DNA of 64,000 nt, taken from the NCBI RefSeq assembly GCF_005869935.1, contig NZ_SZQF01000008.1, positions 124,001 through 188,000 of the forward strand, given 5' to 3'. Origin of the DNA: Winogradskyella algicola. Lineage in GTDB: Bacteria; Bacteroidota; Bacteroidia; Flavobacteriales; Flavobacteriaceae. The notes beneath the pieces were generated by a model that was not told the DNA's origin, did no database searches, and saw only the letters and a list, made by a program, of their open reading frames with translations. This document shows positions 20,082-45,930 of this stretch, one piece after another (position 1 is the stretch's first letter; each line of letters opens with the position of its first letter). A program made the position numbers and the translations under genes.

Positions 20082-20672
20082 TTGATTACTAAAAAACAAC
20101 TTAGAACAAAACGATTATTTGACGTTCTCTTAGTTTTGTTTTTGTTGCCATTTTTAATGGTTCCAATTATTGTTTTAATAGTTATTGCCACAATAGATAC
20201 AAAAAAATACGGTGTTTTTGTTCAGAAACGAGTAGGGCAGCATGGTAAACCTTTTAAAATCTATAAGATAAGAACCCTTAAAGAAGGTACACATCGACTG
20301 GGTCATTTAGACAAAAGCGCAACATCATTTGGTAAATTCCTAAGAAAAACCAAATTAGACGAACTTCCTCAATTATTTAATGTGCTTAGGGGTGATATGA
20401 GTTTTGTTGGTCCTCGCCCTGATATTCAGGGTTTTGCTGATGAATTAGTAGGCGATGACCGAATTATTTTGCTAGTTAAACCAGGCGTAACTGGTGAGGC
20501 AACTCTAAAATATAAAGATGAAGAAAAGGTATTAGAACGTCAAAAAGATCCCGAACACTACAATAGAACGATTATTTGGGTAGATAAAGTGAAAATCAAT
20601 AAAAACTACGTTAAAAATTACAGTTTTTATTTAGATTTGAAACTCATTTTAAAATCCATTTTTAACAGATGA
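20082..20672 (+). CDS. Small initiating phosphoglycosyl transferase (PglC/WbaP-core type)
   Basis: 196 residues: one N-terminal hydrophobic re-entrant helix (about 15-37) and a cytoplasmic Bac_transf domain with QKRVGQHGKPFKIYKIRT, KTKLDELPQLFNVLRGDMSFVGPRP (catalytic D-E) and KPGVTGEATL. It transfers a sugar-1-phosphate from a UDP-sugar to undecaprenyl phosphate to start repeat-unit synthesis. It starts with TTG, 19 nt after the kinase gene, and its TGA overlaps the next ATG (ATGA). A second, larger initiating enzyme ends the locus at 44536. Confidence 0.9.
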   Translation: MITKKQLRTKRLFDVLLVLFLLPFLMVPIIVLIVIATIDTKKYGVFVQKRVGQHGKPFKIYKIRTLKEGTHRLGHLDKSATSFGKFLRKTKLDELPQLFNVLRGDMSFVGPRPDIQGFADELVGDDRIILLVKPGVTGEATLKYKDEEKVLERQKDPEHYNRTIIWVDKVKINKNYVKNYSFYLDLKLILKSIFNR

Positions 20673-23040: not shown

Positions 23041-23907
23041 TTGTTGAGCAATAAGGAAGATGAATGGCTATATACCATCTCTGCAAAGAGAAAACTCATC
23101 GACTTTAATTTTAAAGAAATTTGGCGTTATAGAGACTTACTGTTTTTGTTTGTAAAACGTGATATTGTCACGCTTTACAAGCAAACCATTTTAGGGCCTC
23201 TTTGGTACCTCATCCAGCCTTTATTTACTTCCATAATTTTCACTTTAATATTTAATAATTTAGGTCAAATACAAACAGGAAGTGTGCCACCGTTTTTATT
23301 CAATCTAGCAGGAATTACAGCATGGAACTATTTTAGAGATTGTCTTAATAACACGTCGAGTACCTTTACAAAAAACCAGAATATATTTGGTAAGGTTTAT
23401 TTTCCAAGAGTAATATTACCAATGTCTATTACTATTTCTAACCTTTTAAAATTTGGTATTCAGTTTCTGATTTTTATTGGTTTTTTTGTGTATTACTCAG
23501 TAATAGGTTTTGAGTTAAGCATTAATTCTAATATAATTTTGTTTCCTATTTATATTGTCATTATGGCAATGCTAGGGCTAGGTTTGGGTATGATTTTTTC
23601 GTCGCTCACTACAAAATATCGAGACTTAACGGTGTTACTGACTTTTGCAGTACAATTGCTTATGTATGTATCTGCAGTGCCCTATCCTATGTCCGAGGCA
23701 AAAGCTAAATTTCCACCGTTGGTAGCTAGAATCGTAGAGTATAATCCTTTAACTCAAATTATGGAAGGATTTAGATATATGCTGCTTGATATTGGCGAAT
23801 TTAATCTTGCCAGGTTTTTATATACATTTTGTATAAGCTTGTTTATATTTTTATTAGGATTGGTTATTTTTAATCGTACAGAAAAAACCTTTATAGATAC
23901 TGTGTAG
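23041..23907 (+). CDS. Wzm-like ABC-2 permease for polysaccharide export
   Basis: 288 residues with six predicted membrane segments and the family motifs FVKRDIVTLYKQTILGPLWY at the N-terminus and VEYNPLTQIMEGFRYML before the last helix. With the ATPase that begins 3 nt downstream it forms an exporter that carries lipid-linked polysaccharide across the inner membrane. The start is TTG after a 78-nt gap with no ATG in frame upstream of the conserved block. Its presence in the same operon as Wza, Wzc and a Wzy-like protein is unusual. Confidence 0.9.
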   Translation: MLSNKEDEWLYTISAKRKLIDFNFKEIWRYRDLLFLFVKRDIVTLYKQTILGPLWYLIQPLFTSIIFTLIFNNLGQIQTGSVPPFLFNLAGITAWNYFRDCLNNTSSTFTKNQNIFGKVYFPRVILPMSITISNLLKFGIQFLIFIGFFVYYSVIGFELSINSNIILFPIYIVIMAMLGLGLGMIFSSLTTKYRDLTVLLTFAVQLLMYVSAVPYPMSEAKAKFPPLVARIVEYNPLTQIMEGFRYMLLDIGEFNLARFLYTFCISLFIFLLGLVIFNRTEKTFIDTV

Positions 23908-23910
23908 AAG

Positions 23911-25191
23911 ATGTCTGATGTAATTCTTAAAGTAGAGCATATAAGTAAACAATATCGACTAGGTCTTGTAGGTACTGGTACACTAAGCCATGATCTAAAG
24001 CGATGGTTATATAAGATACGAGGAAAAGATGACCCTTATTTAAAAGTTGGGGATACTAATGATAGGAGTAAAACTGCTGAGAGTGATTATGTTTGGGCAA
24101 TTAAGGATATTAATTTTGAAGTTAAGCGAGGAGAGGTTCTTGGTATCATAGGAAAAAACGGCGCAGGTAAATCTACATTGCTCAAAATACTCTCTAGAGT
24201 TACTAGTCCAACGACCGGTCAAATAAAAACCAAAGGGCGTATTGCTTCTTTGTTAGAAGTAGGTACAGGCTTCCATCCAGAGCTTACAGGAAAAGAGAAT
24301 ATTTATCTCAATGGTGCTATTTTAGGAATGACCAAAACCGAAATAAAAGCTAAAGAACAGGAGATTGTAGAATTTTCTGGATGCCAACGTTACATAGATA
24401 CACCAGTGAAAAGATACAGTTCTGGTATGCGTGTACGTTTGGCATTTGCAGTAGCAGCGTTTTTGGAGCCAGATATTTTAGTAGTAGATGAGGTTTTAGC
24501 TGTCGGTGATGCTGAGTTTCAAAAAAAAGCCGTCGGTAAAATGCAAGATATATCTAGAGGTGATGGTCGAACAGTTCTTTTTGTGAGTCATAATATGGCA
24601 GCAGTTAAGAGTTTATGTACAAGAGCTATTGTACTAGAGCATGGAAAAGTAGCATACAATGGTAGTACTCAAGATGCTGTAAGTTTTTATTTATCTGATG
24701 GTAACAGAGAAATCATAGATAATCTTTTAGAACGAAAAGACAGAAAGGGTATAGGTGATTTTCTATTTAAAGGGATCTCTATACTTAATGAAGCAAATGA
24801 AAAGCACCTTAATTTACTTTCTGGTGAGTTGTATCGTTTTAGAATTGAATTTTCCACTAAAAAAACTATTATTGACGCTAAAATAAGGGCACGGTTCATA
24901 GATAGTAAAGGACAAATTCGTTTTTTGCTGAATAATTATTTTATTGATACAGTTACTTTAAATTTAGAAAAAACAGATAAAGGTATTGTTGAATATACGA
25001 TAGAAAAACTACCGCTACCAAATGGAAATTATACCATACAACTTACATGTTTTTCAGAAAATGGATTAGAAGACGATCTTGAGAACACAGTAGATTTTAA
25101 CTTAATTGGTGGCGATTTTTTTAATTCTGGTAGAGAACAGTTTTCTAAAGAAGGCGTACTTGTAGAACATAAATTTAAAGTCCTTAAATAA
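23911..25191 (+). CDS. Wzt-like ABC ATPase with C-terminal carbohydrate-binding domain
   Basis: 426 residues. The ABC domain (1-255) has Walker A GKNGAGKS (81-88), signature YSSGMRVRLAFA and Walker B DILVVDEVLAVGD. Residues about 265-426 form the Ig-like Wzt C-terminal domain (ISILNEANEKHLNLLSGE... to DFNLIGGDFFNSGREQ). In E. coli O9a this domain recognises the modified non-reducing end of the finished chain. The long form therefore suggests the exporter checks a terminal mark, which fits the methyl- and sulfotransferases that follow. It pairs with the Wzm-like permease. Confidence 0.92.
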   Translation: MSDVILKVEHISKQYRLGLVGTGTLSHDLKRWLYKIRGKDDPYLKVGDTNDRSKTAESDYVWAIKDINFEVKRGEVLGIIGKNGAGKSTLLKILSRVTSPTTGQIKTKGRIASLLEVGTGFHPELTGKENIYLNGAILGMTKTEIKAKEQEIVEFSGCQRYIDTPVKRYSSGMRVRLAFAVAAFLEPDILVVDEVLAVGDAEFQKKAVGKMQDISRGDGRTVLFVSHNMAAVKSLCTRAIVLEHGKVAYNGSTQDAVSFYLSDGNREIIDNLLERKDRKGIGDFLFKGISILNEANEKHLNLLSGELYRFRIEFSTKKTIIDAKIRARFIDSKGQIRFLLNNYFIDTVTLNLEKTDKGIVEYTIEKLPLPNGNYTIQLTCFSENGLEDDLENTVDFNLIGGDFFNSGREQFSKEGVLVEHKFKVLK

Positions 25192-25197
25192 TATTTA

Positions 25198-25881
25198 ATG
25201 TTAGTTTGCCATAAATACAAATTTATTTTTTTTAAGACACAGAAGACTGCAAGCACTTCAATAGAAATTGCACTTTCATCTTTATGTACTGAGGAAGATA
25301 TTATTACGCCAATATCAAAAAACGATGAAAAGGTAAGACAAGCTTTAGGATATTTAGGACCGAGAAATTATAAAGTGCCTTTAAAAAAATATTCTAAGGA
25401 TGATGTTATAGATTTTATTTTTAAAGGTAAACGAAGGGAGCTTTATAATCATATATCATGTGAAGAACTTATGACTGTAATAGGAGATAAAGTTTTTAAG
25501 GATTATTATAAATTTTGTTTTGAAAGAAATCCTTATGAAAAAGCGTTATCCTTATTTTTTCACGAAGGTGGATATGAAAAATGGACATCGCTTAAAAATT
25601 TTATTGAACAAGGAGGATTAAAGGTCATAAAGGGTTATGACCAATATACGGTAAACAATGTTGTAGCTGTTGATGACGTTTTTAAATATGAAAATATTCC
25701 GACAGCATTAGATGTAATAGCAAAAAAAATAAATCTTCAACAAAAAATAGAATTACCTAAAACAAAACTTAAATCGCAATTTAGAAAAGATAAACGACCT
25801 TATGATGAGGTTCTTTCACAGGAAGAAAAAGATTTAATAGCTACTATTTGGGCACGCGAAATTAAACTAATGGGATACTAA
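25198..25881 (+). CDS. Sulfotransferase family 2 protein
   Basis: 227 residues. The PAPS 5'-phosphosulfate loop is FFKTQKTASTSIE (about 11-23), and the 3'-phosphate motif is FCFERNPYEKALS (about 107-119), in the arrangement of the Sulfotransfer_2 family (carbohydrate sulfotransferases). It starts 6 nt after the Wzt-like gene, within the operon. Expected role: PAPS-dependent sulfation of a sugar in the polymer. It is shorter than many family members and has no membrane segment, so sulfation would occur in the cytoplasm before export. Acceptor unknown. Confidence 0.8.
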   Translation: MLVCHKYKFIFFKTQKTASTSIEIALSSLCTEEDIITPISKNDEKVRQALGYLGPRNYKVPLKKYSKDDVIDFIFKGKRRELYNHISCEELMTVIGDKVFKDYYKFCFERNPYEKALSLFFHEGGYEKWTSLKNFIEQGGLKVIKGYDQYTVNNVVAVDDVFKYENIPTALDVIAKKINLQQKIELPKTKLKSQFRKDKRPYDEVLSQEEKDLIATIWAREIKLMGY

Positions 25882-25888
25882 TACGATT

Positions 25889-26599
25889 ATGAGTTCTATA
25901 TCTAAAAAAGTAAAGCGCCTTTTCTATAAAGAAAAACCGTTAGTAAAAGTCTATTCTCACCCAAGGTCTGGCACACATTTTTTAGAGGCGTTTTTAGCTA
26001 AGAATTTTTATAAAACTAAAGATTTATCCATTGATAAGGTGACTTGGGGACATTGGTCTGATAGAAGAATTAAAGCAGATGGTAACCCATACGGAAAGCT
26101 ATTTGGTAACCATTATTTGGGGTTCGAAAATCAAAATAGTACACCAAAAATATACATTTACAGAGATGGTAGAGCTGTAGCATATTCTATTTGGAAAACA
26201 CCAAACTTTATTTCTAAAGAAGAGGCTGGAATAACATTCAACGATTTTTTAAATAAAAAAATAGATTGGAGCGGTACACCAGCTAGAAAATCTGAGTCAG
26301 AGTATACCATTTTTCAACATTGGGCAAAACATGTAAGTAGTTGGAAAAAACTAGCTGAAAGTGATGAAAATTTATTAATGATTAAATACGAGGATTTAGT
26401 TGACGATCCATACAGTATTTACCAGAAAATTCATAATAAGTTTTTTAGTGAACAGCTTATCCTTAAAACCAATAAGATAGATGTTATAAAAAAACCATTA
26501 GGATTATTACCAAATAAGGGAGTAAAGGATGAATGGACTAAACATATAAATGATCAAAACTCAAGAGCTTATAAGGGCATTGAAAACATTACGGTTTAA
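25889..26599 (+). CDS. Sulfotransferase family 1 protein
   Basis: 236 residues. The PAPS loop is SHPRSGTHFLE (24-34) and the 3'-phosphate motif IYIYRDGRAVAYS (about 88-100), matching Sulfotransfer_1. It is followed by FQHWAKHVSSWKKL and IKYEDLVDDP, also typical of the family. It lies 7 nt after the family 2 sulfotransferase gene. The two are not closely similar to each other, so they probably sulfate different positions. Cytoplasmic, no signal peptide. Confidence 0.85.
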   Translation: MSSISKKVKRLFYKEKPLVKVYSHPRSGTHFLEAFLAKNFYKTKDLSIDKVTWGHWSDRRIKADGNPYGKLFGNHYLGFENQNSTPKIYIYRDGRAVAYSIWKTPNFISKEEAGITFNDFLNKKIDWSGTPARKSESEYTIFQHWAKHVSSWKKLAESDENLLMIKYEDLVDDPYSIYQKIHNKFFSEQLILKTNKIDVIKKPLGLLPNKGVKDEWTKHINDQNSRAYKGIENITV

Positions 26600-31498: not shown

Positions 31499-32881
31499 AT
31501 GAAAATTATCAAAACAAATATAATTCCAGCGCGTCAGTCCTTCGCAAAAGCTAAAGGCGATCATGTCTTAAACTACGAAGCCATCTGTGTCTTTACAGCA
31601 ATTGGTTTTTTTCTAGATCAAGATACATATTATAAAGATGAAGTTTGTCTAAGGGCAGGAACAATTAATACCATTGATGAATCTGGTTATTTAATAAAAA
31701 GTGAACCTTGGTTTCAGTGGCATCATTCTCCTAGAGATATAAGTTTTAATGATGCTCTCACTGAGTTTACTGTACTTTTTGAATCAATTATAGATAAGCA
31801 AGTGGTGGACAAAAAAGTGATTTTGCCCTTATCAGGTGGTTTAGACTCTAGAACGCAAGCAGCAGCTTTAAACTATCTCAACAAGGATGTTGAGTCTTAC
31901 AGTTATTCATTTGAAAATGGATACAATGAGGCCAGAATATCAAAGCAAATTGCTGATGCTTGTAATTTTCCATATGAATCTTTTAAAATTCCAAGAGGAT
32001 ATCTTTGGAATTGCATTGAAGAATTATCTAAAATAAATCAATGTTACGCAGAGTTTACACATGCTAGGCAAATGGCAGTAGTGGATACGTTAAAGCCGAA
32101 AGGCGATATGTTTTTACTCGGTCATTGGGGCGACGTACTTTTTGATGCTACAACAAAGCAGCAACTTTCAATAGAAGAAGAAGTTAATTTAATCATTAAA
32201 AAAATAGCGAAGCCTGGTGGGTTACAATTAGCAAATGCACTTTGGAAATCTTGGGATTTAGAAGATAATTTTGAATGGTATTTGAGAGATAGAGTTAAGA
32301 GTTTGCTATCCCAAATACATATTAAGAATTCAAGCGCAAAGATCAGAGCGTTCAAATCTATGTATTGGGCACCAAGGTGGACAACCGCTAATTTATCTGT
32401 TTTTGAAAGTGTACATCCTATCTCATTGCCATATTATGATAATAAAATGTGTGAATTTATATGTTCACTTCCCGAAGAGTATTTAGCCGATAGACGACTT
32501 CAGATAGCCTACATACAAAAGAGAAATAAAAAACTTTCAGAAATTGTTTGGCAAGAACAAAAACCTTTTAACCTAAATAATTTTAATCTCAATAAGTCGC
32601 CTTATAATTTACCATATAGAATTAGCAATAAATTGTATAGAATACTTAATAATATTATGGGCAAACCTTATGTTCAGCGTAATTGGGAATTGCAATTTTT
32701 AGGTAAAGCCAATAATGATAATTTAAAAACTCATATTTATAATGATAGCTTTTATACACTAGTCGAGAAACAAATAGTTGATGGTATTTATCAAAGTTTT
32801 AAAGAAGAGGATAATGTACAATTTTCACATCCTTTAAGTATGTTATTAACCTTGTCTTTATGGCAAAAGAATAATAGTTGA
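31499..32881 (+). CDS. Asparagine synthase-like protein (synthetase domain, no glutaminase Cys)
   Basis: 460 residues. The ATP-pyrophosphatase loop is LPLSGGLDSRTQ (about 110-121), followed by the family segments SYSFENGYNEARISKQIAD and FLLGHWGDVLFD. The N-terminal nucleophile Cys2 of class II amidotransferases is absent, so the protein probably uses ammonia or activates a carboxylate for some other amine. Similar proteins recur in exopolysaccharide loci, including those linked to exosortases, where they are thought to amidate uronic acids. The locus makes a uronate precursor, which fits, but the substrate is inference. It overlaps the next gene by 4 nt. Confidence 0.8.
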   Translation: MKIIKTNIIPARQSFAKAKGDHVLNYEAICVFTAIGFFLDQDTYYKDEVCLRAGTINTIDESGYLIKSEPWFQWHHSPRDISFNDALTEFTVLFESIIDKQVVDKKVILPLSGGLDSRTQAAALNYLNKDVESYSYSFENGYNEARISKQIADACNFPYESFKIPRGYLWNCIEELSKINQCYAEFTHARQMAVVDTLKPKGDMFLLGHWGDVLFDATTKQQLSIEEEVNLIIKKIAKPGGLQLANALWKSWDLEDNFEWYLRDRVKSLLSQIHIKNSSAKIRAFKSMYWAPRWTTANLSVFESVHPISLPYYDNKMCEFICSLPEEYLADRRLQIAYIQKRNKKLSEIVWQEQKPFNLNNFNLNKSPYNLPYRISNKLYRILNNIMGKPYVQRNWELQFLGKANNDNLKTHIYNDSFYTLVEKQIVDGIYQSFKEEDNVQFSHPLSMLLTLSLWQKNNS

Positions 32882-33936
32882 GTTTGAAGCGAATTAAAAT
32901 ACTATATACCATTCCAAATTTTAAAACAGCAGGAAGTCAAAATGTTTTACTTTCTATAGTAAGAGGTTTAGATTCGGAAAAATTTGAGGTCTTTATAGCT
33001 GTAGAAAAATTTCCAGAACTTATCCCAAATGATATTTCGGTTTCTAACCAAATACATATTCAATACATTGGTAAGCTTTTAAATGATGTTAAACAGTTTT
33101 CAAGACTATTAAAAACGTATCAAATAGATGTGTGTCATTCTTGGGATTATAAATCCAATTTTGTTGAGGTGATAGGATGTCGATTAAGAGGAGTTAAATA
33201 TTTATATACAAAAAAGAATAATGCCTGGTCTAAGCGATGGTTTTTAAAAAGTATATTGGCCAGTCACATTGCTTATGATAATCCAGAGATGAAATCTCGA
33301 TTTTTTAGTTCATCTTATCTAAAAACTAAAATTAGTTTTATCCCTCACGGAGTTAACTTGGTTAAGTTTAGCTGTGAAGAAAACAAGCCTAAAAAAACTT
33401 TTAACCTTTGTTGTATAGGTAATATAGTAGAAAACAAAAATCAAGCACAAGTCATAGAAGCCTTAATTGAGTTGCCCGATTTTGTTCATTTAAATCTATA
33501 CGGAAAAGAAGATGGAGTTTATAAAACCAATCTCATACAATTTATTGAGAAAAATCACCTTCAAAACCGAGTGTCATTCAATGGCTTTGTAGAGAATGAC
33601 AATATTCCAAAAGTACTCTCTCAACAACATCTTTTTGTTTTAGCATCAAAACAAGAGGGTTTGCCAGTAAGTATTCTTGAAGCTTTGGCATGTGGCGTAC
33701 CAGTGCTAAGTTCTAATTCTGGTGGTGGCGCAGCATATATTCTAAATGAAGGACGAGGTGGTTTCATATTTAATTCTACAACAGATTTAGTAGAGAAGAT
33801 TAAATTATTACTTAATGACAAGATGCTTTACCAACAATTAAGACAACAAGGAATAGAAAATGTAAAATTACGTTTCTCCTTAACAAAAGAGATTAATGCT
33901 TACAAAAATTTATATTTAAAACTTCTTTCAAGATAG
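32878..33936 (+). CDS. Glycosyltransferase family 4
   Basis: 352 residues. The N-terminus reads KILYTIPNFKTAGSQNVLLSIVRGL, with a flexible acceptor loop at TAGSQ. The donor domain has LCCIGNIVENKNQAQVIEAL, then ASKQEGLPVSILEALACGVPVLSSNSGGG and a C-terminal RFSLTKEINAYKNLY. The start is TTG inside the stop of the preceding gene (4-nt overlap). Sugar specificity unknown. Confidence 0.86.
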   Translation: MSLKRIKILYTIPNFKTAGSQNVLLSIVRGLDSEKFEVFIAVEKFPELIPNDISVSNQIHIQYIGKLLNDVKQFSRLLKTYQIDVCHSWDYKSNFVEVIGCRLRGVKYLYTKKNNAWSKRWFLKSILASHIAYDNPEMKSRFFSSSYLKTKISFIPHGVNLVKFSCEENKPKKTFNLCCIGNIVENKNQAQVIEALIELPDFVHLNLYGKEDGVYKTNLIQFIEKNHLQNRVSFNGFVENDNIPKVLSQQHLFVLASKQEGLPVSILEALACGVPVLSSNSGGGAAYILNEGRGGFIFNSTTDLVEKIKLLLNDKMLYQQLRQQGIENVKLRFSLTKEINAYKNLYLKLLSR

Positions 33937-33940
33937 AATA

Positions 33941-34792
33941 TTGAAAACGTTTAACAAACATATTATAGTTGCAGGATCAGCAAGAAGTGGCACTAGTTGG
34001 CTTGCCGAAATTATTGGCTTACAGCACCGCTATAGACTTTTGTTCGAACCAGAGCACGAGTTTCAGACCCAAGAAGGTTATTTGATTTGCGATAAGTTTA
34101 TTTCCCAAGATATTTTACAAAAAGATCAGGAGGAATATTTTAGAAGAGTATTTAGTAACAAAGTAGATAGTGATTGGATTGCACAGATAAGTAACAGAAA
34201 ATTGAAGATGCACTTATGGCCGATTATTCCTAAAAAGTATGTCATAAAATTTGTACGTTGTAACTTAAGTGTTCATTTTATTAATACCTATTTTAAAATA
34301 CCAGTATTGTTTATAATGAGAAATCCTTATGATGTTGTGCTGTCTCAAAATAGGGTGCAATTTAGTTGGTTGTATAACCTTAATCATTTTAAACATCAAA
34401 AACCTATTACCAAAGTTTTAAAAACTAACTATAATTTTAATTGGGAAGAAGCTAATAATTACACAGCCATAGAAAAGTTAACGTTAAGGTGGTGTATAGA
34501 AAACAAAGTCGTTTTTGATTTAAACCCTCTAAATACATCAAAAATTAAAATTGTAAGGTACGAAACCTTAATAGCAGATATTAACTTGTTTTATGACATC
34601 TGTAGATCCTATAATTTAAAACCACTTTCTAATATAGAAGACGTATATCGTAGACCATCTTCTAAAACGCATCCTAAAAGCCCTATTAAAAATGGTAAAC
34701 AATTCAAAACTAATGGAGATAATCAAGCCTTAGAGCAAATTCAAAATATTCTTAACAGGTTTGAGGTAGCCGAATATAATTATCTAAAATAA
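33941..34792 (+). CDS. Sulfotransferase domain protein
   Basis: 283 residues. The PAPS 5'-loop is AGSARSGTSWLAE (about 11-23) and the 3'-phosphate motif is FIMRNPYDVVLSQ (about 125-137). KIVRYETLIAD matches the family's later conserved segment. It is the third sulfotransferase of the locus and is not a near copy of the other two. Start TTG, 4 nt after the preceding stop. Probably sulfates the glycan using PAPS; acceptor unknown. Confidence 0.82.
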   Translation: MKTFNKHIIVAGSARSGTSWLAEIIGLQHRYRLLFEPEHEFQTQEGYLICDKFISQDILQKDQEEYFRRVFSNKVDSDWIAQISNRKLKMHLWPIIPKKYVIKFVRCNLSVHFINTYFKIPVLFIMRNPYDVVLSQNRVQFSWLYNLNHFKHQKPITKVLKTNYNFNWEEANNYTAIEKLTLRWCIENKVVFDLNPLNTSKIKIVRYETLIADINLFYDICRSYNLKPLSNIEDVYRRPSSKTHPKSPIKNGKQFKTNGDNQALEQIQNILNRFEVAEYNYLK

Positions 34793-34798
34793 GTGTTT

Positions 34799-35986
34799 AT
34801 GCGTATAGGCCTTGTAATACCAACTACTCCAAAGTATTCCGAAACCTTTTTTAATAGTAAGATTAAAGGCCTTCTAGAGAATGGATTTGAGGTTATCATT
34901 TTTACCCAAACGATTGCTTCAGATTTTAATCTATGCAAAACAGTAAAAAGTCCAAGAGTGAGTGGCAGCAGATTTTTGGTTGCGTTAAATATGATTAAAG
35001 TCGGTTTTAAATTGTTGTTTCATCTAAACAATGTTATAAAATATTATAAGCTCTTAAAGTCGTCTGGGTTTGCATTAACAACAATCTTCAAAAGGATGTA
35101 CCTAAACAGTCATATATTAAGTCATTCCGTAGATTGGTTGCATTTTGGGTTTGCCACCCAAGCCATAGGAAGCGAGTATGTTGCCAAGGCCATTGGCGCA
35201 AAAATGGCTGTGAGTTTTAGAGGGTTTGACATTAATGTTTATCCGCTAAAATATGAAAACTGTTATCTCGATGTCTGGAAAAACGTGGATAAGGTACATT
35301 CTATATCTCAGTATCTGGTAGAGCAAGCTTACGGTTTAGGATTAAAAAAAGTAATACCCTTCTCTATTATTACACCAGCAGTAGATGATCAAATTTTTAA
35401 AACCATTACATCTAAACAAAACTCAGTAGGTCAAAACCAACTAACAATATGCTCTGTAGCAAGATTAAACTGGATTAAAGACCTAACAACAGCTCTAGAA
35501 ACCATACAGCTTTTAAAAAAGACCTATCCTAATTTACAATACCACATTATAGGAGATGGCGATATTAAAGAAAGAGAGCGCTATCTGTTTTTGGTAAACC
35601 AACTTGGTTTAGAAGATAATGTTGTTTTTCATAGAAAGTTAAGTCATAACGATACTTTAGAACTTGTTGGTAAATCCGATATTTATCTACAAACTAGTTT
35701 AAATGAAGGGTTTTGTAATGCTGTTTTAGAGGCTCAAGCTTTAGGAAGGTTATGTGTAGCCTCTGATGTAGGAGGACTTAAAGAAAACATTATTGATGGA
35801 AAAACAGGATGGTTGGTTAGGTCTCAACAGCCAAACGTTTTTGCCAATAAAATAATAGAAGTTGTACAACTTCCAGAGGCAAAAAAAATAGCTGTTTCAA
35901 ATAATGCAGTTAGTAGAGTTCAAAAAAACTTTACGCTTAGTTATCAAAACTTTAAATTTCTTCAATTTTACAATTGCAAAGAATAA
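34799..35986 (+). CDS. Glycosyltransferase family 4
   Basis: About 395 residues from the ATG at 34799 (a GTG at 34793 adds two codons). RIGLVIPTTPKYSETFFNSKI at the N-terminus resembles colanic-acid type transferases (WcaL-like), with LHFGFATQAIGSEYVAKAIGAKMAVSFRGFDIN. The donor site has CSVARLNWIKDL and QTSLNEGFCNAVLEAQALGRLCVASDVGG. The gene ends with a 65-nt gap before the exostosin-like gene. Sugar specificity unknown. Confidence 0.86.
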   Translation: MRIGLVIPTTPKYSETFFNSKIKGLLENGFEVIIFTQTIASDFNLCKTVKSPRVSGSRFLVALNMIKVGFKLLFHLNNVIKYYKLLKSSGFALTTIFKRMYLNSHILSHSVDWLHFGFATQAIGSEYVAKAIGAKMAVSFRGFDINVYPLKYENCYLDVWKNVDKVHSISQYLVEQAYGLGLKKVIPFSIITPAVDDQIFKTITSKQNSVGQNQLTICSVARLNWIKDLTTALETIQLLKKTYPNLQYHIIGDGDIKERERYLFLVNQLGLEDNVVFHRKLSHNDTLELVGKSDIYLQTSLNEGFCNAVLEAQALGRLCVASDVGGLKENIIDGKTGWLVRSQQPNVFANKIIEVVQLPEAKKIAVSNNAVSRVQKNFTLSYQNFKFLQFYNCKE

Positions 35987-36001
35987 AATTAAATAGTTAG
36001 A

Positions 36002-36019
36002 AATCATTCACTAATGATT
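36002..36019. repeat. Small hairpin in a gap within the polysaccharide locus
   Basis: AATCATT and AATGATT form a 7-bp stem with loop CACT, 16 nt after the stop of the glycosyltransferase gene and followed by an AT-rich stretch. It may attenuate transcription inside the locus, but the stem is weak. Confidence 0.3.
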
Positions 36020-36051
36020 AATTTTACATCAAAGCACATTACTATTTGTTT

Positions 36052-37113
36052 ATGAAATTGTTTTTCCCTAAAAAACACTACGACAGTAATTATAGAAGAC
36101 ATTTATTCGCTTTACTTAAACCATTTATAAAACAAGAGGGATTTACTGATAAAGACAGAATTTTAGGCTATGGTATTTCAGAAGAAGATGTTCATTTTAC
36201 AAGTGAAATACAAAACGCTGATTTTGTAATCTTAACCATGTCTTGGATGTATTATAAAATAACCAAGCAAATTCAAAAGGCCATAGCATTTATTCAAGAA
36301 GCTAATAAATTAGGTAAGAGCGTGATTGTATCTTTACCTAGTGATTTTGGGATTGACATTCCAAAAGATTTGAATGTTATTGTAATAAGAGAACAGGGTT
36401 ATAAATCTAAGTTAAATATTAATCATTACTGTGTGCCAGTATTTATCGAAGATCCTCTAAGGAAATATTATAACCAAGCAACCATATTCAAAAGACAATA
36501 TTATACTCAGCCGACAGTCGGTTTTTGTGGGCAAACAGACAGTAGTAAAATTGAAGCATTAAAAGAGTTGGCTAAAATAGCTGCTAGAAATATCCTTTAT
36601 AATTTTGGTATAAGATACCAAAACCCTCATCAGCTAATAGCAACTAAATATTTAAGGTCACAACTTTTAGAATTATTACAAAATGGCACTTGGGTAAAAA
36701 GTAATTTTATAATACGTAAGCAACACAGAGCAGGTGTAGAGGCCTTAAAAAACAGAGACATTCATAAAACTACATATGAATTTTTTGATAACATAAAAAA
36801 TTCAGACTACGTCTTATGCGTAAGAGGGGTAGGCAATTTTTCAGTGCGATTATATGAAACTTTGGCTATGGGTAGAATACCTATTTTTGTGAACACAGAT
36901 TGTATTCTTCCTCTTGATAATTTTTTAAATTGGAAAGATCATGTAGTCTGGGTAGAGTATAAAGACCGATATCGGGTAGCGGAAAAAGTGGTAGAATTTC
37001 ATAGTAAATTGGATAATGAAAAATTAAATGATTTATTTGAAGCTAATAGAAAACTATGGGAAGACAAATTAAAGTTAAGGACTTACTTTCAAAATTTATT
37101 TCAAAATTTATAA
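36052..37113 (+). CDS. Exostosin-like (GT47-type) glycosyltransferase
   Basis: About 353 residues from the ATG at 36052 (a TTG at 36046 adds two codons). The diagnostic C-terminal block, SDYVLCVRGVGNFSVRLYE followed by TLAMGRIPIFVN, is the donor-binding segment of exostosin/GT47 proteins. The N-terminal half has a GISEEDVHFTSEIQNADFVIL segment. In eukaryotes exostosins build heparan sulfate, and here the protein sits in a locus with three sulfotransferases. Exact sugar not known. Confidence 0.75.
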   Translation: MKLFFPKKHYDSNYRRHLFALLKPFIKQEGFTDKDRILGYGISEEDVHFTSEIQNADFVILTMSWMYYKITKQIQKAIAFIQEANKLGKSVIVSLPSDFGIDIPKDLNVIVIREQGYKSKLNINHYCVPVFIEDPLRKYYNQATIFKRQYYTQPTVGFCGQTDSSKIEALKELAKIAARNILYNFGIRYQNPHQLIATKYLRSQLLELLQNGTWVKSNFIIRKQHRAGVEALKNRDIHKTTYEFFDNIKNSDYVLCVRGVGNFSVRLYETLAMGRIPIFVNTDCILPLDNFLNWKDHVVWVEYKDRYRVAEKVVEFHSKLDNEKLNDLFEANRKLWEDKLKLRTYFQNLFQNL

Positions 37114-37147
37114 TGTTTGTACTTTTGAAAACAAAGTAAGCTGAATA

Positions 37148-37681
37148 TTGAAACAGTTAATATATTTCATAGCAGATATTAAAAGAGCAATCGGAAGAAA
37201 AAAACTTCGGATTTTTACTGTTCTTTTTACCAGATCATTTTGGGGACTTTTTAACTATCGTTTAGAACGTAGTTGCTATGGTTTGTTTGGTCGTTTATAT
37301 CCTGTTATCAGAATAGTCTATCTTCCTTTTTCATTTTTATTTCAAATAATATCCAATGTAGATATACATTATAAAGCTGATATAAAAGGTGGTCTGTTAA
37401 TTCATCATCCTGCTTTAGGTATTGTAATTAATGGTGTGTGTGTTATTGGCGCTAACTTAACGATGACAGGTGGCAATGTACTAGGTGTAAATAAGTCTTG
37501 TAACAAAGGAGATTTTATAATTGGTGATAATTGTAATATTGGAGCCAATGCAACTGTAATAGGACCTTTAAAACTGGGTGATGAAATTAGAGTTGGTGCA
37601 AATGCATGTGTTGTAAATTCCTATATCGATTCTAGAATTGTACTTGTTGGCATACCTGCAAAACCTTTAGAAAATGTTTGA
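37148..37681 (+). CDS. Serine O-acetyltransferase-like hexapeptide-repeat transferase
   Basis: 177 residues. The C-terminal half is a left-handed beta-helix with hexapeptide repeats (VVIGANLTMTGGNVLG, IGDNCNIGANATVIGP, IRVGANACVVNS) and GGLLIHHPALGIVINGVCVIG, where the catalytic His lies. The N-terminal part has a short hydrophobic segment (LYPVIRIVYLPFSFLFQII). In polysaccharide loci such SAT-like proteins acetylate sugars. The start is TTG. The last 8 nt overlap the next gene. Confidence 0.82.
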   Translation: MKQLIYFIADIKRAIGRKKLRIFTVLFTRSFWGLFNYRLERSCYGLFGRLYPVIRIVYLPFSFLFQIISNVDIHYKADIKGGLLIHHPALGIVINGVCVIGANLTMTGGNVLGVNKSCNKGDFIIGDNCNIGANATVIGPLKLGDEIRVGANACVVNSYIDSRIVLVGIPAKPLENV

Positions 37682-38996
37682 GTTTCTTAAGTACATACAG
37701 CCTACACATTACTTTGCATTGCCTTCAAAAACAGCATATGTTTTTCCTAAATATACAAAATTGCCTGTTGAAGTAAAAAATCAGTTACAATCTGATGAAA
37801 ACTATACTTCAGAAAATGCAAAGTTATACGATTTATCTTGGCAAGCGCTACAGTTGGGTTATATAGGTAAAGCTGAAACCTACAGTAGCTTTGAGAATAT
37901 TTCTGTAAATGATAATTATTATTTTTTAAGAAAGTATTTTAGTGCATTCTGGAGTGTTTATGTTTTAATGATTAGAGTATTGAGTTTTAAAAATCCAATA
38001 AAGGAGTTTAAAGGATTTTATAAAAGTAAAAACATTAAGCGTACTCAATACCTTAAGAAACCTATTTCTTATGATGATTGGGATACTTTTGAGTCTTCTT
38101 TAATTGAGAATAACCCCAAGGTTAGCGTCATAATCCCAACACTAAATAGATACAAGTATTTACATGATGTTTTAAAGGATTTAGAGCAACAGATTTACTC
38201 TAACTTTGAAGTAATTGTAATAGATCAATCAGACGTATTTAAAGCCTCTTTCTACGATACTTATGATTTAGATATTACTGTAGAATACCAACAAGAAAAG
38301 GCACTTTGATTAGCACGAAATAGAGCGATTCAATTAAGTAAGGGTGATTTTATTTTATTGTTTGACGATGATAGCAGAGTAGAACCTAATTGGATTTCTA
38401 ACCATTTAAAATGTATCGATTTTTTTAATGCAGACATATCATCTGGTGTTTCGTTGTCCGTTGTTGGGGATAAAATCCCAGAGAACTATTCATTTTTTAG
38501 ACGGTCAGATCAATTAGATACGGGAAATGTTCTCGTAAAAAAGGAAGTTTTTAAAGACATAGGACTTTTTGATAGACAATTTGAAAAACAGCGAATGGGA
38601 GACGGTGAATTTGGCTTAAGAGCTCATAAAAATGGGTTTCTAAATGTTTCTAATCCTTACGCTAAACGAGTACACTTAAAAGTAGGCTCTGGTGGATTGA
38701 GAGAAATGGGAAGTTGGGATGCCTTTAGGCCAAGAAACGTTTTCGCACCAAGACCAATTCCAAGTGTTTTGTACTTGTATCGCAAATACTATGGTAACAA
38801 TAGAGCAAAATTAGAGTTGATGAGGACTGTGCCTTCTTCTGTAATGCCCTATAAATTTAAGGGAAATAAAGCACTTAAGGTTGTTGGTGTATTCTTTTCA
38901 ATTTTAATTTTACCACTGATTTTGTTTCAGGTTTTAAAATCTTGGAGACTGGCTTCTGTTAAACTTAATCAAGGTTCAAAAATAGAGCAGTTATAG
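37674..38996 (+). pseudogene. Glycosyltransferase family 2, interrupted by in-frame TGA
   Basis: A 440-codon frame starting at ATG 37674. The first part (211 codons) reaches the GT2 nucleotide site VSVIIPTLNRYKYLHDVLKDL and breaks at TGA 38307-38309, after QQEKAL. The next codon continues in the same frame with LARNRAIQLSKGDFILLFDDDSRVEP, including the catalytic D-D-D, and a further full domain ending in a TM helix. GT2 enzymes have an ordinary residue at this place, so a point nonsense mutation, a sequencing error or readthrough is likely. A second product from an internal TTG at 38358 is possible but would lack the donor site. Confidence 0.85.
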
Positions 38997-38998
38997 TA

Positions 38999-40078
38999 AT
39001 GAGAATTGTTCAGGTAATAGATCGGTTAGAGGTTGGTGGGGCAGAGCGTGTCCTAGTAGACCTTACAAACTTATTACACGAAAGTGAATATAATGTTAGT
39101 GTAATTTGTCTTTTACAAGAAGGACAGCTGGACGCTCAGTTAGCTTCTGAAATACCAATAACTTACATAAGAAGGAAGCATAAATTTAATCCTATTTACC
39201 TCTTTAAGCTTTACAAAGAACTAGTAAAGTACGATATTATTCATATTCATTTAAGGCAAGTCTTAAGGTATGTGTCGCTACTCTTTTATTTTACTAGATT
39301 GAATAATAATAAGGTTATCATTTTTCACGATCACTTTGGGAAAATTGCTCAAAACAAATCTATTAGTTATAGTCTAAAGCTAGCTATTAAGAAATGCACT
39401 GCCTACATAGGTGTTAGTAGAGAGCTTGTGTCTTGGGCAAAAGAAACAAGGTTAAATGCTAACATTTATAAATTAGCTAATGTTATAAGAAAGAAGGAAA
39501 CTAGAGTAAATAGCCTAAGAAGTCATAATGACAATATAGAAGTTGTAGCGGTTGGTAATTTTAGACCTCAAAAAAATTATGAGTATTTGTTAGATGTTAT
39601 AAAAGATAGTCCAAGTAATTATAATTTTACAATCTATGGACAATCTGTTGATAATGCCTATTTTGAGAAGATTAAAGCACAGATTGAAAAATTCAATATC
39701 GTTGATAAAGTAACTATTATTACCGATTGTAAAGACATTAAAACCCAATTGCATAAGTACGATATAGGTATACACACCGCAAAATCTGAGACAGGTCCTT
39801 TGGTTGCGATAGAATATTTAAGTGAAAATTTGCCTTTTATAGCGTATAATACAGGTGAAGTTGCTGATAAGATAAAATTTGATTTTCAAGAATTTATTCA
39901 AAACGATTTCGAGGTAACCAATTGGTTAAAACAAATGGATAATCTTGTCAAAACTAAAAAGGAAATGGAAATTAAAATAGAATTGTTTTACAATCAAAAT
40001 TTCTCTGAAGAATCTTACCTCAAATCCTGTATTTCTATTTATCAGGAATTGTTAAACCCAACCAAAAAACACAGTTAA
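38999..40078 (+). CDS. Glycosyltransferase family 4
   Basis: 359 residues, GT-B fold. The N-terminus MRIVQVIDRLEVGGAERVLVDLTNLL has the GGAE acceptor loop. The donor domain has VVAVGNFRPQKNYEYLLDVI and GIHTAKSETGPLVAIEYLSENLPFIAY, where the usual E-x7-E is E-x6-E like. ATG start 2 nt after the interrupted GT2 gene. Sugar specificity unknown. Confidence 0.84.
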   Translation: MRIVQVIDRLEVGGAERVLVDLTNLLHESEYNVSVICLLQEGQLDAQLASEIPITYIRRKHKFNPIYLFKLYKELVKYDIIHIHLRQVLRYVSLLFYFTRLNNNKVIIFHDHFGKIAQNKSISYSLKLAIKKCTAYIGVSRELVSWAKETRLNANIYKLANVIRKKETRVNSLRSHNDNIEVVAVGNFRPQKNYEYLLDVIKDSPSNYNFTIYGQSVDNAYFEKIKAQIEKFNIVDKVTIITDCKDIKTQLHKYDIGIHTAKSETGPLVAIEYLSENLPFIAYNTGEVADKIKFDFQEFIQNDFEVTNWLKQMDNLVKTKKEMEIKIELFYNQNFSEESYLKSCISIYQELLNPTKKHS

Positions 40079-41206
40079 TTGAAACTTGCAATTATATCAC
40101 ATACCGAGCATTATAAATTATCAGATGGGACTATAGTTGGTTGGGGACCAACTATAACTGAAATCAATTTTTTAGCTCAGATTTTTGATGAAATATATCA
40201 TATTGCTATGTTTCATAATGCCGAGGCACCAGAGAGCTCGTTACCATATACAAGTAATAAAATAAAATTTATACCTATTGATCCCTCAGGCGGTCATTCG
40301 TTATTAGATAAAATTAAAGTAGCCTTATCTGCGCCAAAAGTTATAAGGACAGTCAATTCAATTTTAAAAAAGACAGACTGTTTTCAATTACGAGCTCCTA
40401 CGGGAATAGGTGTTTTTTTAATTCCTTATCTCACAATTTTTTCAAAAAAAAAGGGATGGTATAAATATGCAGGTAACTGGAATCAAAAATCTCCGCCATT
40501 GGGTTATGCTTTACAACGGTTTATGTTAAAACATCAAAATCGTAAAGTCACTATAAACGGTAGTTGGCCCAATCAAAATGAGCATTGCTTAAGTTTTGAA
40601 AACCCATGTCTTACAGAGAACGATTTAGAAAATGGTATAAGAGTAAGATCAAATAAAAGGAAAGAAGGACTAGTCAATTTTTGTTATGCTGGTAGGTTAG
40701 AGCGACAAAAAGGGGTAGAACGTATTATCAGAGCTTTTAATAATTTAGATGAAGAAATGTCTGATAGAGTGGGTACTGTACACTTGGTTGGTAATGGTTC
40801 TGAGGTAGAATATTTTAAAAACCTTAGTGATGATAGCAAAATTAATTTTGTTTTTCATGGCTTTTTACCGACGGACAAATTATTTCAAATTTATGAAAGC
40901 TCACATTTTTTTATAATGCCAACTACAGCATCAGAAGGTTTTCCTAAAGTTATAGCAGAGGCTATGAATTTTGGCTGTCTCCCAATAGTCTCAAATATAT
41001 CTTCTATAGGACAGTATGTCAAAGATGGTAAAAATGGATTTTTAATTTCACCTGTTAATGAAGGTAATGTTATTAAAGTCATTTCTAAAGCTCTTCTAAT
41101 GCCGTCTGGTAATTTCAGATTATTTGTTATTGAAAACGAAGAAATAGTAAGAAAATTCTCATACATGTATTATGTTGAGCGAATAAAATTGTTATTAAGC
41201 GAATAA
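40079..41206 (+). CDS. Glycosyltransferase family 4
   Basis: 375 residues. N-terminus KLAIISHTEHYKLSDGTIVGWGPTITEINFL; donor domain FCYAGRLERQKGVERIIRAF and MPTTASEGFPKVIAEAMNFGCLPIVSN, then QYVKDGKNGFLISP. The start is TTG directly after the preceding stop. It ends the first block of the locus: 129 nt without genes follow. Sugar specificity unknown. Confidence 0.86.
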   Translation: MKLAIISHTEHYKLSDGTIVGWGPTITEINFLAQIFDEIYHIAMFHNAEAPESSLPYTSNKIKFIPIDPSGGHSLLDKIKVALSAPKVIRTVNSILKKTDCFQLRAPTGIGVFLIPYLTIFSKKKGWYKYAGNWNQKSPPLGYALQRFMLKHQNRKVTINGSWPNQNEHCLSFENPCLTENDLENGIRVRSNKRKEGLVNFCYAGRLERQKGVERIIRAFNNLDEEMSDRVGTVHLVGNGSEVEYFKNLSDDSKINFVFHGFLPTDKLFQIYESSHFFIMPTTASEGFPKVIAEAMNFGCLPIVSNISSIGQYVKDGKNGFLISPVNEGNVIKVISKALLMPSGNFRLFVIENEEIVRKFSYMYYVERIKLLLSE

Positions 41207-41252
41207 TAGTTCATTTGCCTTAGTGAAGAGTTAATTCATTGACTGACAATAT

Positions 41253-41260
41253 TATATTTG
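41253..41260 (+). promoter_or_regulatory. Candidate internal -7 box TATATTTG
   Basis: TATATTTG fits TAnnTTTG and lies 75 nt before the transglutaminase-like gene, in the largest gap within the locus. No good -33 TTTG is seen at the expected spacing. It could start a separate transcript for the last four genes. Confidence 0.35.
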
Positions 41261-41335
41261 TTTAAAATTAGAGAGCCCTACCTTGATAATTTATGATATT
41301 GTGTAGTTAATATTAATAAATTCAATTTCTTTATT

Positions 41336-42145
41336 TTGGCATTAAAAAAAATTTCTTGGGCACTCCGCAGACATCCACTGCTATATTATACCAGATTTTG
41401 GCTACTTTCCAAAAACTCAACAATAAATAGGCTTGAAAAAGAATGTTATAATAGTGAGAATACAAAAGGTGTAATACCCAGTTTTTTTTACGAGATTAAT
41501 GAGAAGATTTTTGAACACGAAAAACCAGACTCTGATTTAGATAAGGCAATTTATATTGCTTTGTGGCTTAGAAAACATATTAAAGGCGGTAAGGGGCTTA
41601 GCCTCGCATCCGACGTAGCTTTAAGAGCTATGATAAACGGAAATGGTGGGGTTTGTAGTGATATGTCTCAGATTTTCAATAATTTTTGTGTAATTAATGA
41701 TATTAGGGTAAGAGAATGGGGAATTACAATAATGCCTTTCGATAAAAAGTATGGCGGACATGCTACCAACGAGATTTTTTCTAAAGAAATTGGAAAATGG
41801 ATTTTGATAGATGTTTCTAAATGTATTCTATTCTATTATAATAATAAACATGAACCGCTTTCACTGTTTGAAGTCTTTACATCAAATCTTTCTCACAAGT
41901 ATTATTCATTTCATAAAAAAATTGAAAGCGATACTCAAATAAAAAATTATTATTACAACAAAAGAGCAACTCCTTTTTTAATTAGTAAGTACAAAAATTC
42001 CGTTTACGATAAATATTTAAGAAAAAATAATTCTAAATATCCAATCTTCTTTGTTCATTTTTATATATACTTGATAGGTAAAAGTTATCAATATAAATTT
42101 CCTCTAAGAGATTATAGAAGAATGTTTAAATCAAGCTTTTCTTAG
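41336..42145 (+). CDS. Transglutaminase-like (cysteine protease fold) protein
   Basis: 269 residues. The catalytic triad is visible: Cys107 in GGVCSDMSQIF, His142 in GGHATNEI and Asp159 in WILIDVSK, in the order of the transglutaminase-like superfamily. There is no signal peptide, so it acts in the cytoplasm or is membrane associated. Members near exopolysaccharide genes are known but their reactions are not established. The start is TTG, and the next gene is the Wzy-like protein, so they probably work together. Confidence 0.75.
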   Translation: MALKKISWALRRHPLLYYTRFWLLSKNSTINRLEKECYNSENTKGVIPSFFYEINEKIFEHEKPDSDLDKAIYIALWLRKHIKGGKGLSLASDVALRAMINGNGGVCSDMSQIFNNFCVINDIRVREWGITIMPFDKKYGGHATNEIFSKEIGKWILIDVSKCILFYYNNKHEPLSLFEVFTSNLSHKYYSFHKKIESDTQIKNYYYNKRATPFLISKYKNSVYDKYLRKNNSKYPIFFVHFYIYLIGKSYQYKFPLRDYRRMFKSSFS

Positions 42146-44535: not shown

Positions 44536-45930
44536 ATGACACACAAAAAAGGCATCCACTTTGAGGTATCAGAACGAAAGATTCTATTACGAATCATGGA
44601 CTTGGTTATGGTGTTTTTGGCCGTTTATTTTCTAAACCTGTATCCAAAGTTCGAATATCTGCGTTTCGATGGTGAGAATATAGTCTCCCTAATTTTGCTT
44701 GCGATGTATATTTTAATTTTCGGTACTATTTTCGAAATCTATGATTTACAGAAAGCCAGTAAGTTAGACTCAACGTTTAGGAATATTGTAATTACAACAT
44801 CTACCGTTGTGTTATTTTATCTATTAACACCTTTCTTATCGCCTTACTTACCTGAAGAGCGTATACAGATTGTATATTTTTATGTAGCCATAATTGTATC
44901 AATTTTACTTTGGCGTTTAGTCTATATAAATCTTATAGAATCGCCTAGATTTTACAAGCGCGTACTTTTAGTTGGAGAAATTTCTAATATTGATGGTTTG
45001 GTTAGAGCGCTCAATACTTCAGATCCTAACTATAAAATTGTTGGTTTTATAAATAGTGAAGCATCTACTCCAGAGTCTGTAAAATTTAAGGGACTAAAAG
45101 AGTTTCAAGCCAAAGATTTTTTGAACGTTATCGAGAAAGAAAGAATATCAGAAGTACTGGTGGCTAGTTTTAATTCTGAAGCTATTATCGCTGAGGTCTA
45201 TCACGATCTAATGATGTTATTAGAGCGAGGTTTTAAAATAAGAGAATATACTCAGGTATATGAAGAGTTACTACATAGAGTTCCTATTCAATTTGTAGGT
45301 AAAGATTTCTATAAATACTTTCCTTTTAGTAGAAGTAATGAGAACAAACTTTATATATTTTTCCAAAGAGCTTTTGATATTCTATTAGCAATTATCGGGC
45401 TAACCGTAGGTGCATTAATTTTACCATTAATAGTTTTAGGAAACCTTTTAGGTAATAAAGGGCCATTATTTTACATACAAGAGCGTATTGGGCGAAATGG
45501 AAAACCTTTTCAAATCATCAAACTTAGAACTATGGTGGTAAATGCAGAGAAAGATGGTGTTAAGTGGGCAAAGAAGGATGATAAGCGTATTACCAAGTTT
45601 GGTAAATTTTTAAGAAGGTCGCGGTTAGATGAAATTCCTCAGTTTTATAATGTTTTAAAAGGTGATATGAGCGTTATTGGTCCAAGACCTGAGCGTCCGT
45701 TTTTTGTTAATGAATTAGCGAGAATTATACCGTTTTATGAAACACGACATATCATTAAACCAGGACTAACGGGTTGGGCCCAAGTAAAGACCAGATATGG
45801 CTCTTCAATAGACGATAGTCTAACAAAATTACAATACGATTTGTATTACATAAAACACAGAAGTGTGTTTCTAGACTTTAATATTGCTATAAAAACTCTA
45901 AGTACAATTTTGTATTACAGAGGCCAGTAA
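44536..45930 (+). CDS. Polyprenyl glycosylphosphotransferase (WcaJ/WbaP type)
   Basis: 464 residues. Four N-terminal membrane helices, a CoA_binding_3-like region (VLLVGEISNIDGLVRAL, about 145-255), a fifth re-entrant helix and the C-terminal Bac_transf domain with QERIGRNGKPFQIIKLRT, RLDEIPQFYNVLKGDMSVIGPRPE and KPGLTGWAQV. It transfers a hexose-1-phosphate to undecaprenyl phosphate. This is the full-length counterpart of the short enzyme at 20082. It is the final gene of the locus, facing the next gene convergently with 2 nt between stops. Confidence 0.92.
   Translation: MTHKKGIHFEVSERKILLRIMDLVMVFLAVYFLNLYPKFEYLRFDGENIVSLILLAMYILIFGTIFEIYDLQKASKLDSTFRNIVITTSTVVLFYLLTPFLSPYLPEERIQIVYFYVAIIVSILLWRLVYINLIESPRFYKRVLLVGEISNIDGLVRALNTSDPNYKIVGFINSEASTPESVKFKGLKEFQAKDFLNVIEKERISEVLVASFNSEAIIAEVYHDLMMLLERGFKIREYTQVYEELLHRVPIQFVGKDFYKYFPFSRSNENKLYIFFQRAFDILLAIIGLTVGALILPLIVLGNLLGNKGPLFYIQERIGRNGKPFQIIKLRTMVVNAEKDGVKWAKKDDKRITKFGKFLRRSRLDEIPQFYNVLKGDMSVIGPRPERPFFVNELARIIPFYETRHIIKPGLTGWAQVKTRYGSSIDDSLTKLQYDLYYIKHRSVFLDFNIAIKTLSTILYYRGQ

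Follow-up and report, generated by a model that had tools for sequence, protein, structure and literature searches.

Among the proteins with a PF00733-type synthetase domain that are encoded in polysaccharide loci, WbpS and WbqG are known or proposed uronamide enzymes and belong to the TIGR03108 family. The uronamide of the linking sugar in P. gingivalis depends on WbpS, and that of E. coli O121 was reported to depend on WbqG (PMC7468200). AsnB-like proteins also stand beside transferases in XrtA/PEP-CTERM exopolysaccharide loci (PMC7468200), and acyl adenylates are coupled to ammonia, amines or thiols by N-type ATP pyrophosphatases (PMC6594144). Here, an asparagine-synthetase-like protein without a glutaminase domain, termed C0, is described from a polysaccharide locus of Winogradskyella algicola. 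The window under analysis comprises 64,000 nt (positions 124,001-188,000 of contig NZ_SZQF01000008.1), and all positions given here are window positions; the same locus encodes a transglutaminase-like protein, C21. The C numbers of genes denote orthologue clusters built from the window and the loci of 20 relatives. C0 is likely an amide synthetase by mechanism, and the substrates named below are candidates.

C0 shares with WbpS, WbqG and the TIGR03108 family the PF00733-type domain and the setting in a polysaccharide locus. It differs in lacking the glutaminase residue Cys2, and a glutamine-type AsnB-like gene occurs as a separate gene in some C0 loci. The first-pass annotation of this DNA, made from the sequence alone, had noted that proteins of the C0 and C21 types are known from exosortase-associated exopolysaccharide loci; membership of C0 in the exosortase-associated amidotransferase family is not supported, its TIGR03108 score being 26.3 bits against a cut-off of 816.9. 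Unlike the XrtA/PEP-CTERM loci, the C0 locus contains no exosortase, and C0 belongs to another AsnB-like family.

A conserved family without the glutaminase domain

The same annotation had credited the 31499 protein with the synthetase PP-loop and with no glutaminase Cys2, and both statements hold. The sequence LPLSGGLDSR is present, PF00733 is the sole Pfam domain matched (E 2.9e-7), and the Pfam scan found no GATase domain at E 0.001. The open frame spans 464 codons compared with 460 residues from the ATG, and as only about four open codons precede the start, the N-terminal glutaminase domain is truly missing and was not overlooked. Of the features by which AsnB is recognized, C0 has the SGGxDS PP-loop and lacks the N-terminal Cys2 glutaminase domain; its score against the AsnB model TIGR01536 is 36.7 bits, short of the curated cut-off of 267.1.

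The distribution of C0 was followed in a family sample of 149 genomes (one per genus, the own genome counted in), in a phylum sample of 395 genomes, and in a scan of named genomes that overlaps with the family sample and yielded 310 C0 relatives, the best 80 of which were kept. In the family sample, 28 genomes match C0 at E 0.001 or better, 21 of them (the own genome and 20 relatives) with full-length orthologues of the same size and the remaining seven with partial matches at E 1e-14 or weaker. The phylum sample holds 44 matching genomes at E 0.001, including seven (own included) with full-length proteins at E < 1e-150, all of which carry GHxGD, and two (G201 and G393) with long relatives at about 1e-85. 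Among the best 80 of 310 named relatives, the nearest are 75-80% identical and come from Winogradskyella and a Flavobacteriaceae genome; in all 80 the N-terminal domain is absent (open frames of 459-510 amino acids), and SGG[LI]DSR and GH[WM]GD are both present.

In comparisons of C0 with three close relatives, the ratio of nonsynonymous to synonymous substitution rates (dN/dS) is 0.10-0.12, with dS values of at least 1, and an alignment of 56 sequences shows no variation in the PP-loop, the GHxGD core and many polar positions. C0 is a conserved family and not a decayed gene. Conservation and dN/dS likewise exclude that C21 is a pseudogene, as they do for C0. A search of PHROGs gave one unnamed family for C0 and none for C21.

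Linked changes in two active-site loops

In the examined loci, 158 distinct AsnB-like frames were collected, which are not independent events. Fifty of them carry Cys2, always without Arg behind the PP-loop, and 106 carry that Arg, always without Cys2; two have neither. The Arg class is made up of 97 frames of the short C0 type and nine long proteins without Cys2. In the wider C0 class the changes are linked, as SGGxDSR replaces SGGxDS(S/P/G) and GHxGD mostly replaces G(E/D)GxDE. The second loop of the nine long proteins has His in three cases and Gln in two, and no such loop was found in four. Two C0 loci, L064 and L148, hold a long Arg-class frame without Cys2 (545 and 626 amino acids, respectively) as a second AsnB-like protein.

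The proteins L178 and L179 (603 and 604 amino acids), from another family, have no Cys2 and a Cys-less N-terminal region, and retain HWGD. Their neighbours find their best matches in the same transferase clusters as occur in C0 loci, at 30-43% identity. No Pfam GATase match was obtained for L178; the N-terminal part of L178 and L179, leading a seven-sequence profile, aligns with the canonical glutaminase region. In the profile comparison, C0 matches the long Arg-class proteins at E 1.9e-44 and the canonical proteins at 1.4e-15. Cys2 was likely lost first and the domain deleted later.

The PP-loop Asp (D116) and the second-loop Asp (D212) are conserved in C0. Between them, His209 aligns with Tyr345 of CarA (GYGSD) in two weak searches (E 0.025 and 0.0032), and in the profile comparison with the acid of the canonical SGDGGDE loop. 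The corresponding position of AsnB is Glu348. In beta-lactam synthetase (BLS) the catalytic residues are Tyr348 and Lys443, and the Lys of AsnB is Lys449.

Predicted structure and nearest enzymes

The AlphaFold2 model of C0, built from 56 sequences, has a mean predicted local distance difference test score (pLDDT) of 94.3. Foldseek ranked carbapenam synthetase first (E 3e-11), followed by TsnB9, BLS and asparagine synthetases. VIA-align gave Z scores of 24.2 for TsnB9 (root-mean-square deviation 3.2, 393 residues aligned), 20.7 for CarA (3.6, 329), 19.6 for human ASNS (4.3, 320) and 18.4 for BLS (3.5, 316), with other PP-loop enzymes at 10.7 and below. Residues 1-460 of the model pair with the template chains from residue 114-136 onward, which means that C0 has lost about 115-135 residues from the start of the parent fold.

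C0 has in common with AsnB and ASNS the synthetase fold, the PP-loop and the second-loop Asp. It is distinct from them in the missing glutaminase domain and in two motifs, SGGxDSR where they have SGGxDSS and GHxGD where they have G(E/D)GxDE. With CarA and BLS it shares a synthetase fold without a working glutaminase, CarA being its top, though weak, phmmer match in the PDB, and the proposed common logic is that an amine other than ammonia would act as nucleophile. CarA and BLS, however, keep the N-terminal domain that C0 lacks (alignment from residue 114-130), their Tyr of the catalytic Tyr-Glu dyad is His209 in C0, and the context of C0 is glycan assembly. The hydroxyamidotransferase TsnB9, which belongs to the trichostatin pathway, gives both the top structural Z (24.2) and the best profile match (E 0.0013), yet it is only 11% identical over the aligned residues and keeps its N-terminal part.

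Partner glycosyltransferases

The glycosyltransferase family 4 (GT4) cluster C2 was found in 19/21 C0 genomes and in 0/128 others of the family sample (Fisher p 4e-22; one query member, E 1e-40). In the named genomes, 64 of the 80 loci had full 10-kb flanks and were used for neighbourhood counts, the 16 shorter loci being dropped; in all 64, C0 has within 10 kb a gene whose best match is C2, counting the divergent type. C0 and its GT4 are thus present or absent together, a pattern that would be expected were the product of one the substrate of the other. The divergent GT4s in the partner slot of the window and of genome G073 are 49% identical to each other and about 30-33% identical to the common C2 type. 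The slot gene of the window (32878-33936), closest to that of G073 within the sample and about 31-33% identical to the common type, is a natural swap that could change the attached sugar.

The glycosyltransferase family 2 (GT2) cluster C5 occurs in 20/21 C0 genomes and 3/128 others of the same 149 (E 1e-50). Of the three C5-bearing genomes without a C0 match, G047 and G054 retain the greater part of the core and lack any gene with a best match to C2, and in G008 the locus stops at a contig edge. Since two genomes retain most of the transferase-Wzy core without C0, C0 is a decoration and not essential.

The C5 gene of the window is interrupted by an in-frame TGA, at a position held by Trp in 18/18 aligned relatives. 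Among the named loci whose GT2 halves could both be read in one frame, 0/53 have an internal stop, and both halves of the interrupted gene are still under purifying selection. The stop is either a recent loss of the step in the strain or an assembly error, and owing to the interruption the strain may not produce the polymer in its encoded form.

The transglutaminase-like protein C21

C21 had been noted for a Cys-His-Asp set and for its place before the Wzy-like gene, which was borne out: Cys107, His142 and Asp159 are invariant in nine aligned sequences, and the gene ends 23 bp ahead of the Wzy_C gene at 42168. It matches PF01841 marginally (25.3 bits, cut-off 23), and the three further PF01841 proteins of the own genome all score above it. 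The dN/dS of C21 is 0.02-0.06. A structure model from 7 sequences reached a pLDDT of 38 and is not usable for the fold, and phmmer against the PDB returned nothing at E 1.

In the family sample C21 is present in 8/149 genomes, namely 6/21 C0 genomes and 2/128 others. It lies directly ahead of Wzy in all six C0 genomes, which is one syntenic site, and likewise in G262 of the phylum sample. The idea that C0 and C21 form a unit did not survive these counts; an obligate partnership is ruled out by 6/21 versus 2/128, and the Fisher p of 9e-5 expresses enrichment only. Across the phylum sample 60/395 genomes match the C21 alignment at E 0.001, none better than 3.9e-11 besides the own genome and G262. 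The locus of one distant relative (L089, genome G148) comprises an aminotransferase, a MurB-like gene, a sigma factor and one GT2, and the locus of another in G147 has similar gene sizes. C21 is best treated as an optional tailoring accessory of the same polymer in a minority of strains.

Proposed reaction and competing explanations

The reading favoured here, at a probability of about 0.45, is that C0, of the asparagine-synthetase-B superfamily, acts as an ATP-dependent amide synthetase which uses a non-glutamine amine and decorates the repeat unit. C0 would adenylate a carboxylate, and the acyl-AMP would be attacked by an amine other than glutamine-derived ammonia, with His209 standing in place of the catalytic Tyr of CarA and BLS. 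Least certain are the reactants: the carboxylate may be that of a uronic acid, given the genes in the locus of the type for uridine diphosphate (UDP)-linked N-acetylgalactosaminuronic acid (GalNAcA), the amine may be an amino acid or another small amine, and the product may be a uronoyl-amide on the sugar handled by the partner transferase. Polymers of marine bacteria include GalNAcA amide-linked to D-Ala and diNAc-mannuronoyl-L-Ala (PMC3210612). C21 would be a separate, optional Cys-His-Asp enzyme that a minority of the strains use for acyl or amine transfer on this repeat unit.

The uronate precursor genes reported in the first-pass annotation were recovered as TviB- and TviC-like genes, though below the cut-offs of the corresponding models. 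The TviB-like gene scores 562 bits (TviB cut-off 592; above the general nucleotide-sugar dehydrogenase cut-off) and the TviC-like gene 318 bits (cut-off 760), and because of these scores UDP-GalNAcA is something we infer. TviB-like genes are present in 21/21 C0 genomes and 99/128 others (Fisher p 0.014), on the same contig within 45 kb of C0 in 12/20 relatives and on another contig in 8/20. With these genes at hand, a uronate is a plausible carboxylate for C0.

Several observations weigh against the amide synthetase. The catalytic Lys of AsnB and BLS cannot be placed in C0, where a nearby residue of a W....P motif is mostly K or R and also M, Q or H. Two of the nine long Arg-class relatives have Gln and not His, and four are without a detected second loop. 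By sequence, C0 matches solved structures weakly (phmmer, CarA at E 0.025; profile search, TsnB9 at 0.0013 and CarA at 0.0032). The C2 search misses the window and G073, whose partner slot is filled by a divergent GT4, and the transferase-Wzy core is mostly kept without C0 in G047 and G054. TviB is weakly associated with C0, both in the comparison with other genomes and in the 8/20 C0 relatives with the genes on separate contigs.

Amidation of uronic acids had been judged plausible from the start; carboxylate-amide chemistry in a polysaccharide locus stands, while a simple uronamide as the default does not, given that WbpS and WbqG are TIGR03108 proteins and C0 falls outside that family. It is rather unlikely that C0 is a uronamide synthetase that takes free ammonia, or ammonia from a glutaminase acting in trans, to amidate GalNAcA or another hexuronic acid. 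Uronate-type genes in the locus would suit such an enzyme, canonical AsnB-like PesC and asparagine synthetases can use ammonia (PMC13060819, a preprint), and canonical Cys2 AsnB genes are present in the own genome. Moreover, a full-length canonical glutamine-type gene (C22, with MCG at or near the start and a GDGxDE loop) stands separate from C0 in 9/20 relatives' loci and within 10 kb in 22/64 named loci, the two samples overlapping. Nevertheless, C0 is kept alongside C22 where the latter occurs, 42/64 named loci have no canonical AsnB-like gene within 10 kb, and the acid kept by 9/9 C22 proteins is His in C0; C22 is neither required by C0 nor replaced by it. N-acylation of an amino sugar by a non-sugar hydroxy acid, in which C0 would adenylate malate or 2-hydroxyglutarate and attach it to the amine of the sugar before C2 glycosylates its hydroxyl, also appears unlikely. 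Both acids are analogues of the aspartate used by AsnB, the scheme would explain the tight pairing of C0 with its transferase, and linkages of this kind are on record (PMC3210612): Flexibacter maritimus, which belongs to the same bacterial group, has a 2-hydroxyglutar-5-yl amide in its O-polysaccharide, and Pseudoalteromonas and Vibrio have malyl amides. Against it, no aminotransferase was matched by NCBIfam among the 30 open reading frames (ORFs) at 16781-48186, with relatives' loci unchecked, so that no free-amine sugar is apparently made there.

A purely structural or regulatory role, with C0 as a pseudo-enzyme that binds ATP only, would fit the loss of the canonical acid motif and of the glutaminase, but the invariant PP-loop, GHxGD core and polar residues and the purifying selection make it quite improbable. 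Lasso peptide clusters contain both superfamilies together, as McjB and McjC. AsnB-family lasso cyclases are also named in PMC13060819, and C0 and C21 could on that model be a cyclase and a transglutaminase-like leader protease. This is scarcely credible here: a stretch of 8.5 kb with transferase genes separates the two, C21 is absent from 15/21 C0 genomes so that they are neither adjacent nor co-conserved, and C0 and C21 gave no lasso-named match at E 0.001, in libraries unchecked for suitable models and with no search made for a precursor ORF.

Exosortase genes

The absence of an exosortase from the locus, seen in the first pass, was upheld, and the independence of C0 from an exosortase is supported; a search of the whole genome showed no link to the locus either. 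TIGR02602 matched nothing in the own genome, with the control matched in 1 of 14 genomes, below the cut-off. PF09721 gave a single sub-threshold match (23.4 bits, cut-off 25.7) on a separate contig of 4,967 bases (contig C6), whereas the C0 locus lies well inside the 223-kb contig C43. The protein concerned (L218, 112-708) is XrtX-like, with 118 bits to NF046081 (cut-off 170) and 51.7 to the exosortase/archaeosortase model TIGR04178 (cut-off 23). No exosortase link of the C0 locus was found, the lone XrtX-like gene being on that separate contig. The PEP-CTERM model had no match in the own genome and is not informative, the control having matched nowhere. Behind the XrtX-like gene is a 136-amino-acid ORF without NCBIfam matches.

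Organization of the locus

C0 and C21 are surrounded by ten glycosyltransferase genes, a polyprenyl glycosylphosphotransferase, methyl- and acetyltransferases, the TviB- and TviC-like genes and a Wzm/Wzt exporter (Table 1). Three sulfotransferase-like genes (25198-25881, 25889-26599 and 33941-34792; PF03567, PF00685) suggest that the encoded polymer is probably sulfated. Ortholog clustering gave the common order C0...C2...C1...C5...C8...C3-Wzy-C4-glycosylphosphotransferase in most of the 21 loci. On the opposite strand, the genes that follow are Lnb-like (in 13 genomes) and PorV2-like (in 14 genomes). A membrane-bound O-acyltransferase (PF03062, cluster C12; e.g. L060 14182-15606) recurs in 14 relatives' loci and is absent from the window. 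Behind it there is often a gene for a protein of some 300 amino acids (C28 in six loci; e.g. L060 15612-16502), and the one scanned had no Pfam match.

Table 1. Genes of the C0 locus, in window positions
Feature	Position	Strand	Remarks
TviB-like nucleotide-sugar dehydrogenase (uronate precursor)	20669-21964	+	
TviC-like C-4 epimerase	21985-22962	+	
Wzm/Wzt-type ATP-binding cassette exporter, two genes	23041-25191 (23041-23907; 23911-25191)	+	
GT4 glycosyltransferase C10	30293-31486	+	directly upstream of C0
C0, glutaminase-less asparagine-synthetase-like protein, 460 amino acids	31499-32881	+	SGGLDSR PP-loop, residues 112-118; LGHWGD loop, 207-212
GT4 glycosyltransferase, divergent type	32878-33936	+	in slot of C0-linked C2
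Sulfotransferase-like protein C20	33941-34792	+	PF00685
GT4 glycosyltransferase C1	34793-35986	+	clustered in 21/21 C0 loci, family sample
Exostosin-like glycosyltransferase C23	36046-37113	+	PF03016
Hexapeptide acetyltransferase	37148-37681	+	
GT2 glycosyltransferase C5	37674-38996	+	in-frame stop 38307-38309
GT4 glycosyltransferase	38999-40078	+	
GT4 glycosyltransferase C3	40079-41206	+	
C21, transglutaminase-like protein, optional accessory	41336-42145	+	PF01841; Cys107-His142-Asp159
Wzy-like polymerase C6	42168-43520	+	PF04932 (Wzy_C)
GT4 glycosyltransferase C4	43474-44481	+	
Polyprenyl glycosylphosphotransferase C7, initiating enzyme	44536-45930	+	TIGR03025, above cut-off

Significance

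Searches of the open-licence PMC literature, judged mainly by titles and abstract openings, showed no account of AsnB-like proteins that lack the glutaminase and are encoded in polysaccharide loci, and C0 was not found described in the excerpts of PMC7468200, PMC3210612 and PMC6594144. Nor did the searches turn up an enzyme for the amide-linked amino and hydroxy acids of marine polysaccharides. Uronamide synthesis should be deduced from an AsnB-like gene of a polysaccharide cluster only where the gene product has both Cys2 and the acid loop. It is tentatively put forward, with the odds still against it, that the Arg/His-type glutaminase-free AsnB homologues (SGGxDSR...GHxGD) may be a dedicated and previously unnamed family of Bacteroidota glycan amide ligases, each with its own glycosyltransferase, that would supply the enzymology for amino-acid and hydroxy-acid amide linkages of marine glycans. 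The C0 family offers a sequence-recognizable candidate enzyme for those linkages, together with a closely bound partner transferase.

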